A DNA stretch of 20,349 bases from a virus: IMG/VR virus record IMGVR_UViG_3300032311_000420, positions 1 through 20,349 of that record; one strand, 5' to 3'. The notes under the pieces are model-generated. The model made no database searches, was not told the origin of the DNA, and worked only from the letters and a program-made list of their open reading frames with translations. Each line of letters starts with the position of its first letter. The stretch's first letter is position 1. Position numbers and translations under genes: made by a program. Positions 9,645 to 12,008 of this stretch are shown here, piece by piece.

Positions 9645-9700
9645 ATAGGTCGGAGGGAATTGTCAAGCAGTCTTTCCGCTTGACAAGGAAGGAGACCTAT
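9645..9700. promoter_or_regulatory. Nested dyad, operator or structured leader candidate
   Basis: Outer arms ATAGGTC (9645-9651) and GACCTAT (9694-9700) enclose inner arms TTGTCAAGC (9660-9668) and GCTTGACAA (9678-9686). The spacers are purine-rich, GGAGGGAA and GGAAGGA. Each inner arm contains a perfect TTGACA reading outward, but no good -10 hexamer stands 16-18 bases from either. The symmetry therefore suits a regulator site or an RNA hairpin at least as well as a promoter. Confidence 0.5.
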
Positions 9701-9731
9701 AGGTACAGACCATGCAACTGCCCGCAGATAT

Positions 9732-9830
9732 ATGCAGTTAAACTGGGACGCAGACATAGAGGTTTGCTGCGGCCTAGACTGTCGTCTGCTCAGCAATCCA
9801 GACTACAGTACTATAGAGCGTCAGCATTAA
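9732..9830 (+). CDS. Candidate 32-residue micro-protein
   Basis: ATG at 9732 opens a 32-codon frame beginning MQLNWDADIEVCCGLDCRLL and ending at TAA 9828-9830. It has protein-like composition, three cysteines and a negatively charged N-terminus. No clear ribosome binding site precedes this ATG. AAGGAG stands 39 bases upstream, nearer an ATG at 9711 that opens only nine codons and overlaps this start, so re-initiation is possible. The stop codon lies in the 5' arm of a terminator-like hairpin, as at the end of a short transcript. I give it low confidence; a small non-coding RNA is the alternative. Confidence 0.3.
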   Translation: MQLNWDADIEVCCGLDCRLLSNPDYSTIERQH

Positions 9831-9867
9831 ACAGTCTGTGGGTCTATTAGACCCCAGATTGTTTAAT
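9826..9867 (+). terminator. Rho-independent terminator-like hairpin
   Basis: ATTAAACA (9826-9833) pairs with TGTTTAAT (9860-9867). Inside are a G-T wobble, TCTG with CAGA, a bulged T at 9839, and GGGTCT (9840-9845) with AGACCC (9849-9854) around an ATT loop. The total is about 19 pairs. On the plus strand it runs into TTTGTTTCTG, a U-rich tail. It would stop plus-strand transcription about 250 bases before the terminase gene, so something upstream in the same gap is probably transcribed. Confidence 0.62.
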
Positions 9868-9981
9868 TTGTTTCTGACTATAGTAGAGTATCTCTACCAA
9901 AATATTTCTAGTACAGTAGTACCCCCAGTCTGAACAGGTCTTTTATATGTTTCTAAAAATAGTTTTATTAAAAGTGTTCGT

Positions 9982-10010
9982 TTGACCTGTTTGAACGGAT
10001 TAAGTATATA
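9982..10010 (+). promoter_or_regulatory. Promoter candidate for the right arm
   Basis: TTGACC (9982-9987) is followed after 17 bases by TATATA (10005-10010). They match the sigma70 consensus at five and four positions. A perfect TATAAT also occurs at 10018-10023 without a good -35 at the right distance. Either could start the terminase transcript about 100 bases upstream of its ATG. The zone is AT-rich. The flanking AACAGGTC (9933-9940) and GACCTGTT (9984-9991) arms could form an operator. Confidence 0.45.
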
Positions 10011-10121
10011 TAGAGACTATAATAGTTCAGAAGTCTTTTTAGAGCCTTCTTCACTCTGTTACTATAGACTGTACAAAACTGTTACAAGGCAGGTGTATTC
10101 TGTCCAAAACTAGGGGGCTAG

Positions 10122-12008
10122 ATGACGTTCGAAAAGGGGGCAACTAACCCCAAAACTATGAAGGCAAATGCCGAAAAGCAGCAGGTGCTGGATATGGTGT
10201 CGGAGGGGATGAGCCTTCCTACTGCGATGTCCAAGGTGGGCAAGAAGCCCGATACTGCCCGCATCTGGATTATGAGAGATGCCGATTTTGCTCGTAGACT
10301 AGAGCAGGCTAAACTAGACTCTAAGTCCAATTCCCTTAAAGCCCTTGGTATCCCCAAGGAAGAGATTGCCTTCTCCCAGTTCTCAGAACTATACTTGGGG
10401 TCTAAAGTATTTCCGCATCATCAGGACTGGATTGATTTGATTGAGGGGCGCGACCCTTCTTGGCTCCACCCCGCTATGGTCTATGAGCCAGGGGATGCCA
10501 CCCGTATGCTTATTAACGTACCCCCTGAGCATGCCAAGTCCACCGTCATAACGGTGAACTACTCAACCTATCGTATCGCCATCAACCCTAACGTCCGCAT
10601 CATAGTGGTCTCTAAGACGTTGAACAAAGCACGCGAGTTTGTATACTCGGTTAAGAACAGGTTGTCCCATCCACGCTATGCCAAGATGCAAAATACCTTT
10701 GGTCCAGATGGCGGTTGGAAACAGGACGCAGAAACCTGGAAAGTGGATACCGTCTACCTTGGTGGCGATGCGCGAGATTCAAGTGAGAAAGACCCAACCA
10801 TTCAGGCCCTTGGTATGGGCGGTCAGATTTACGGCGCACGTGCCGACCTGATTATCCTAGATGACTGCATTACTACGGCTAACGCCCATGAGTATGAGAA
10901 GCAGATCAACTGGTTGCAGAAGGAAGTTATCACCCGTCTGGGTAAAAATGGCAAGTTGCTTATCGTTGGTACCCGTATTGCTGCTACCGACTTCTATAGA
11001 GAATTGCGTGACCCGAAGTATTGGTCTAATGGCAAGTCCCCCTTTACCTATATGGGAATGCCTGCAGTATTAGAGTATAAAGAAAAGCCTAAAAACTGGG
11101 TAACGCTTTGGCCTAAATCTGACATCCCTTGGGATGGAGATGATGATGAGCCAGATGAAGATGGTTTATATCCTAAGTGGGACGGGCCAGCCCTGAACAA
11201 ACGTCGCGGTGAAGTTACCGCCTCTACCTGGGCGCTGGTTTACCAGCAGGAAGATATTGCAGAGGATTCAATATTCCCTGCACCTCTGGTACAAGGTTGT
11301 ATCAACGGTATGCGAAAGCGCGGTCCGTTAAATGCTGCAGTAGCAGGACATCCTGCAGATGTACGTGGATACACAATCATAGGCTTTGACCCTGCTATGA
11401 CTGGCAACTCAGCCTTTGTTGTTATTAGTTACAACACTCCTGATGGACGCATTTATGTTTTAGATGCTGTTAATATGTCAGAGCCTACGCCGCAAAAGAT
11501 TCGCGAGACAATTGAAGAACTTGTTCAAAAGTATAGACCTAATGAATTGCGCGTTGAAATTAACGCACACCAAAAAGGCTATGCCCTAGATGATGATTTA
11601 CGTAACTGGCTTGCTCAGTATGGCTGTAATTTAAAGCCACACTTTACTGGTAAGAACAAATGGGACACAAACATTGGCGTTGCTTCTATGTCTAACTTCT
11701 TTGGCACAGTCCGAGAGGGTAAGTTTCAGAAGAATAACACAATTGAATTTCCATCAACCGAAGGCTCTGAAGGTATTAAGGCTCTTATCCAGCAGTTGAT
11801 GACATGGAAACCTAACACTAAGGGTAAGACTGACTGTGTTATGGCTCTATGGTTTGCAGTATTGCGAGTTCAAGAACTTATGCAGGCTGCATCATTTACC
11901 AATCGATATAAAGAAAATCGTTGGGCTACTAAAGCACAGCGGTCAAAAAAAGTATCAGTCAACCTAGACGCTGCCTACCAAGAGCAGTGGCAAGAAATAT
12001 ATGGATAG
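10122..12008 (+). CDS. terL: Terminase large subunit with TerS-like N-terminal helix-turn-helix
   Basis: A 628-residue DNA-packaging motor. Walker A is the variant PPEHAKST at about residues 134-141 and Walker B is LIILDD at about 243-248, followed by a coupling segment (LLIVGTRIAATDFYREL). The RNase H-like nuclease begins near residue 416 with a strand ending GFDPAM, whose Asp is the first metal ligand, and ends near residue 570 with DCVMALWFA. Residues 19-64 form an extra N-terminal helix-turn-helix (VLDMVSEGMSLPTAMSKVG...) much like the DNA-recognition domain of small terminases. No separate TerS gene is visible. GGGGGCTAG precedes the ATG. The first ~1.2 kb is richer in GC than the remainder (sampled rows 63, 52 and 57% against 43, 38 and 42%). 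Confidence 0.93.
   Translation: MTFEKGATNPKTMKANAEKQQVLDMVSEGMSLPTAMSKVGKKPDTARIWIMRDADFARRLEQAKLDSKSNSLKALGIPKEEIAFSQFSELYLGSKVFPHHQDWIDLIEGRDPSWLHPAMVYEPGDATRMLINVPPEHAKSTVITVNYSTYRIAINPNVRIIVVSKTLNKAREFVYSVKNRLSHPRYAKMQNTFGPDGGWKQDAETWKVDTVYLGGDARDSSEKDPTIQALGMGGQIYGARADLIILDDCITTANAHEYEKQINWLQKEVITRLGKNGKLLIVGTRIAATDFYRELRDPKYWSNGKSPFTYMGMPAVLEYKEKPKNWVTLWPKSDIPWDGDDDEPDEDGLYPKWDGPALNKRRGEVTASTWALVYQQEDIAEDSIFPAPLVQGCINGMRKRGPLNAAVAGHPADVRGYTIIGFDPAMTGNSAFVVISYNTPDGRIYVLDAVNMSEPTPQKIRETIEELVQKYRPNELRVEINAHQKGYALDDDLRNWLAQYGCNLKPHFTGKNKWDTNIGVASMSNFFGTVREGKFQKNNTIEFPSTEGSEGIKALIQQLMTWKPNTKGKTDCVMALWFAVLRVQELMQAASFTNRYKENRWATKAQRSKKVSVNLDAAYQEQWQEIYG

Follow-up and report, generated by a model that had tools for sequence, protein, structure and literature searches.

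The window, a virus record of 20,349 bases and apparently an internal fragment, contains an intergenic gap of about 480 nt. On one side of it are leftward genes, the nearest of which encodes a DUF4326 protein, and on the other is the gene for the terminase large subunit. The gap holds a hairpin that resembles an intrinsic terminator, and the question is what this hairpin does. The first-pass annotation argued that a terminator implies upstream transcription, and proposed a hidden small unit ending at the hairpin, either a microprotein of 32 codons or a small regulatory RNA. We find that the role of the hairpin most likely concerns the physical ends of the genome, and not a hidden gene. The features needed at the outset are:

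9826-9867, + strand: the hairpin in question, characterised by its arms, fold, stem conservation and double substitutions; it lies inside a putative terminal repeat.
9732-9830, + strand: the frame of 32 codons, probably not a gene, as it is broken in most close relatives.
10122-12008, + strand: the terminase large subunit (Pfam PF17289, PHROG 38), whose N-terminal part looks HTH-like by eye.

The hairpin is a real, conserved element and more than a product of chance. Its arms (9826-9841 and 9852-9867) are 88% complementary, a terminator scan picks up a stem at 9840-9854 followed by a T-rich tail, and the distance from its end to the terminase start is 255 nt; the earlier description of a terminator-like hairpin some 250 bases before the terminase is thus accurate. 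The terminator-like appearance is weak by itself, because the scan found five sites between 8500 and 11000, where 2.0 ± 1.5 are expected. Nor does the hairpin stand alone, as had been claimed: the whole intergenic region is rich in dyads, of which this is one of several, and the + strand of 9650-9900 folds with an energy of -89.4 kcal/mol (z = -4.75). The dyads reported upstream do exist, one with arms at 9660-9668 and 9678-9686 that are 100% complementary, the other a hairpin at 9743-9777.

Relatives were collected by a terminase search, which gave 80 loci, and by a scan with a conserved promoter-side motif, which gave 120 stretches; in these the motif always precedes a terminase gene wherever there is enough downstream sequence. 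After removal of redundancy, 98 upstream regions were compared. They were selected partly by the pattern GACCC...TTAA, so that those letters are fixed by construction; 17 regions lie outside the pattern, and about half of these are truncated.

A strong stem is present at the position of the hairpin in 67 of the 98 regions, against 11-15 after shuffling, and at a stricter threshold in 36, against 0-2. Double substitutions in the hairpin exceed those in every shuffle, and stems are conserved among the relatives with compensatory changes. The conserved portion of the hairpin is its 3' arm, which holds the motif GACCCCAGAYTGTTTAA (9850-9866). This motif is conserved upstream of the terminase in a large clade of uncultured phages, and is kept even where the stem is absent. 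A T-rich tail, taken as at least five T among the 10 nt that follow the motif, is found in only 34 of the 98. A plain intrinsic terminator, insulating the late promoter from upstream transcription, would fit the stem and the T-rich tail as they stand in the window. It would leave unexplained why the tail is so seldom kept, why the sequence of the arm is conserved and not the pairing alone, and why the motif marks a repeat end in the Beephvirinae, as described below. We therefore regard it as improbable.

The frame of 32 codons runs from an ATG at 9732 to a TAA at 9828-9830 (translation MQLNWDADIEVCCGLDCRLLSNPDYSTIERQH, then the stop), and so does end within the 5' arm, as first described. It is open in the window and in L003, L004, L005 and L011, and stopped early or missing in most of the 21 close relatives (for example L006, L014, L016, L024 and L038). 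No ribosome-binding site was seen directly before the ATG at 9732. A microprotein gene at 9732-9830 is extremely unlikely on this evidence, and the reading was dropped as largely refuted. The comparison of frame and stems that had been suggested as a check gives a divided answer: the stems are kept, with compensatory changes, and the frame is not. With the frame disrupted in most close relatives, and the U-rich tail poorly kept, a microprotein and a plain terminator are both unlikely.

To ask what the motif marks, two further features are needed:

9850-9866, + strand: the conserved motif GACCCCAGATTGTTTAA, 40-41 nt before the putative right end; in four Beephvirinae genomes its highest-scoring match falls at the end of the repeat, and the window has no other perfect match.
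9890-9899, no strand assigned: the conserved block ATCTCTACCA at the putative right end, at near-constant spacing to the motif in relatives.

Judged by terminase, the closest annotated cultured phages are the Beephvirinae of Streptomyces, with about 43% identity; the terminase of ct2KA10, an unannotated assembly, is closer (60% identity). The window and the Beephvirinae have in common the order of the rightward terminase, portal and giant protein, and leftward genes for a primase, a Holliday junction resolvase, a DnaB-like helicase and an exonuclease. The linear genomes of four Beephvirinae have direct terminal repeats of 264, 274, 253 and 263 bp, located in the corresponding gap before the terminase. 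A 17-nt profile of the motif, built from the window clade, was scanned on both strands of these four genomes. In each of the four, the highest-scoring match in the genome begins precisely 40 nt ahead of the right end of the repeat. The limits of the profile were chosen after an earlier version, which included five more flanking positions and used a smaller pseudocount, had placed the top match at the repeat end in only two of the four. A nucleotide profile of the stretch from motif to promoter did not find the Beephvirinae, and matched ct2KA10 at E = 3e-13. The link to the Beephvirinae is made by the 17-nt motif, the geometry and the gene order.

Most members of the window clade have a conserved GTATCTC block 37-40 nt after the motif, and the sequence between the two is variable. 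From this spacing, and the distance from motif to end in the Beephvirinae, the right end was predicted at about 9889|9890 before the contig edges had been examined for it. We also note that a second clade (L231, L232, L270, L281 and L307) has the same GACCCCAGATTGTTTAAT motif, and that in L231 and L232 it precedes a ct2KA10-like terminase gene.

A motif-anchored scan returned 119 contigs, whose edges were then compared. On the right, L229 and L235, which come from two metagenomes, both stop exactly 40 nt past the motif start, at GAGTA|, where their relatives continue with TCTC, and L307, of the ct2KA10-like clade, ends 41 nt after it. On the left, 14 of the 28 contig edges within 400 nt lie at -63 to -83 from the motif, against about 1.5 expected by length, and there are 50 contig ends per kb in the 420 nt before the terminase against 7 per kb further upstream; some edges come from related phages of one study, which makes the counts partly dependent on one another, and they could be raised by breaks in the assembly of a variable region. 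Where it can be read against longer relatives, the left break is AGAYW|G, and it adjoins a covarying hairpin. In these assemblies, which record genome ends only indirectly, the edges thus pile up at two fixed, sequence-specific positions, AGAYW|G and GAGTA|, as would be expected of a short terminal repeat. Several contigs with left edges start with short, mostly purine runs that are absent from their relatives. Reads from the Accel-NGS 1S kit carry a tail of low complexity (PMC6612421), and we therefore take these runs to be probable kit tails added to true ends of DNA. Contig ends also cluster at other places: L002, L018 and L031, each from a different metagenome, start 155-156 nt before the terminase, the first two at the same aligned site.

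A left end about 250 nt upstream was considered and rejected: a self-similarity search at 180-340 nt upstream gave nothing above shuffled sequence, and the contig edges gave 69 nt. The repeat was not seen at both ends of any contig, and no locus among those compared has two exact copies of the motif; the window is itself a fragment.

On the basis of these observations, we propose with good confidence that the hairpin is a DNA element within a short direct terminal repeat, which marks the genome ends and packaging cut sites. The corresponding features are:

9781-9890, no strand assigned: putative short direct terminal repeat of about 110 bp, projected from the contig edges of relatives and the repeat ends of Beephvirinae, and not observed in the window.
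9743-9777, + strand: hairpin just outside the putative left end, with a stem in the window and relatives, and covariation in an alignment of relatives without the window.

The repeat would have the leftward early genes on one side and the terminase gene on the other, with its left end at 9780|9781 (CTAGACT|GTCG) and its right end at 9890|9891 (AGAGTA|TCTC), each to within 1-2 nt. In the relatives there are a conserved motif, a fixed distance to the known repeat end of the Beephvirinae, matching contig ends and conserved stems; the exact coordinates in the window are projected from these. The motif in the 3' arm of the hairpin would be recognised by the terminase together with its partners. A cut 40-41 bp to the right of the motif would produce the right end of the genome, and the left end would be cut 69 bp to the left of the motif, beside the second conserved hairpin. 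This hairpin covaries in the relatives, with GC, AU and UA at one pair. As in other phages with short repeats, each unit of the concatemer would hold a single copy of the repeat, to be duplicated when the concatemer is processed, and folding of one strand into these hairpins could assist the duplication. The earlier premise that a terminator needs upstream transcription is then not required, as the hairpin would lie inside the terminal repeat, with contig ends on either side of it.

The putative repeat folds equally well on its two strands, with energies of -33.6 and -33.7 kcal/mol against -22.2 for shuffled sequence, which favours a DNA palindrome. The motif hairpin has an excess of G-T over A-C (34:15, with relatives counted without correction for relatedness), which leaves room for folding of one strand, either as RNA or as displaced DNA.

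The main rival is therefore an RNA, and its assessment needs the promoters:

9680-9709, + strand: rightward promoter-like element TTGACA-18-TACAGA, which recurs in close relatives.
9645-9701, no strand assigned: long dyad that has TTGACA on each strand and lies close to the start of the leftward gene; by eye, possible divergent promoters.
9982-10010, + strand: probable late promoter TTGACC-17-TATATA before the terminase, with a high score in nearly all close relatives, within a conserved motif at 9976-10003.

A noncoding RNA of about 150 nt, transcribed rightward, could run from about 9716 to about 9870, starting from the promoter-like element and ended by the hairpin, and it may coexist with a terminal repeat. 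The pattern TTGAYA-N16-19-TAYAG is the best match at the position of this element in 11 of the 21 close relatives, and in four more by eye; the boxes are kept and the spacers vary. At least 9 of 12 consensus matches are reached in 35% of all relatives, against 12% in shuffles. The stems covary, and G-T exceeds A-C not only in the motif hairpin but also in the dyad at 9645-9701 (50:26) and the helix at 9743-9777 (16:5). Over a longer region of 270 nt the + strand also has a small advantage in folding (mean -2.9 kcal/mol, p = 0.0006). Against this, the ratio over all stems of the region is 122:98, which is not significant, and part of it leans the opposite way; the fold of the putative repeat has no strand preference; the U tail is not conserved; and the transcript would cross the putative genome end. 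There is no match to an Rfam covariance model, and no tRNA or tmRNA was found in the five loci searched. A short RNA is thus a possible but less likely reading. Of the hidden unit first proposed, this is the part that survives, through the conserved stems and promoter-like element, and the microprotein and the U-rich tail are the parts that do not. A structured RNA spanning the whole region, favoured by eye for a time, was rejected, as the G-T to A-C ratio is not significant overall and the repeat fold is strand-neutral.

Some further observations were made in the gap. The loop of the dyad at 9645-9701 varies and often contains TCTTTTCA, and in L003-L005 an unrelated hairpin of similar shape is found instead. 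The motif at 9976-10003, GTYCG(N9)BTTGRACGGATTAA, shows striking conservation among diverse clade members and overlaps the late promoter; it is possibly an operator dyad. Just before the terminase start, at 10060-10120, many relatives have repeated CTGT-type words (seen by eye), which are possible protein-binding repeats. In L032 an inserted tRNA-Trp gene (anticodon cca, 2846-2917) separates the packaging region from the terminase gene. The promoter motif is also found in an Actinomycetota MAG contig and two Methylococcaceae MAG contigs (L215, L217 and L218), which are perhaps misbinned phage.

If the assignment of the hairpin to a terminal repeat is right, public contigs alone would have served to locate the physical ends of the genomes in a large uncultured phage clade, and the recognition motif and cut positions would be testable in cultured Streptomyces relatives; the hosts of the clade are probably actinobacterial, judged from those relatives alone. 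Conserved hairpins beside the putative cuts would make an old idea, that hairpins act in the duplication of terminal repeats, testable beyond T7. There is also a caution: a hairpin that looks like a terminator, if it lies near a terminase gene, can be a packaging signal.

Among known systems, the hairpin resembles intrinsic (rho-independent) terminators in having a stem and a T-rich tail, in the window sequence only; unlike them, it has a tail that is not conserved, and a 3' arm that is a motif kept without the stem. If the RNA reading were right, there would be a speculative likeness to the packaging RNA of phi29, a small RNA encoded at the genome end, with the differences that no Rfam match exists here and that the motor is unrelated. 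Phage T7 is comparable in that its terminal repeat is direct and short, and a role in the processing of this repeat has been proposed for a hairpin. A "hairpin" end of T7 concatemers was reportedly described by Chung, Nardone and Hinkle in 1990 (a reference in PMC9503643); processing of the T7 type would involve a covalently closed hairpin intermediate on concatemers. Either that the repeat encodes a small structured RNA, transcribed next to the terminase at the genome end, for packaging or repeat duplication, or that hairpins of one DNA strand at the ends prime duplication outside the T7 group, strikes us as unlikely.

The nearest comparison is with the Beephvirinae (FlowerPower, Zeigle, ZooBear and Stella). 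The element is not classed as an end of their type, because the left edges give a repeat of about 110 bp and not 253-274 bp; in addition, no motif hairpin was seen in them by eye, and their overall nucleotide similarity to the window clade is low. They are nevertheless the closest annotated cultured relatives, they have terminal repeats, and their terminase is homologous (about 43%) in the same gene order. They have a motif resembling RACCC-N5-TTGTTAA 40 nt before the right end, as is proposed for the window, and their left ends, GGACT|GTCCC and GGACA|GTCCC, resemble the AGAYW|G edge of the window clade.
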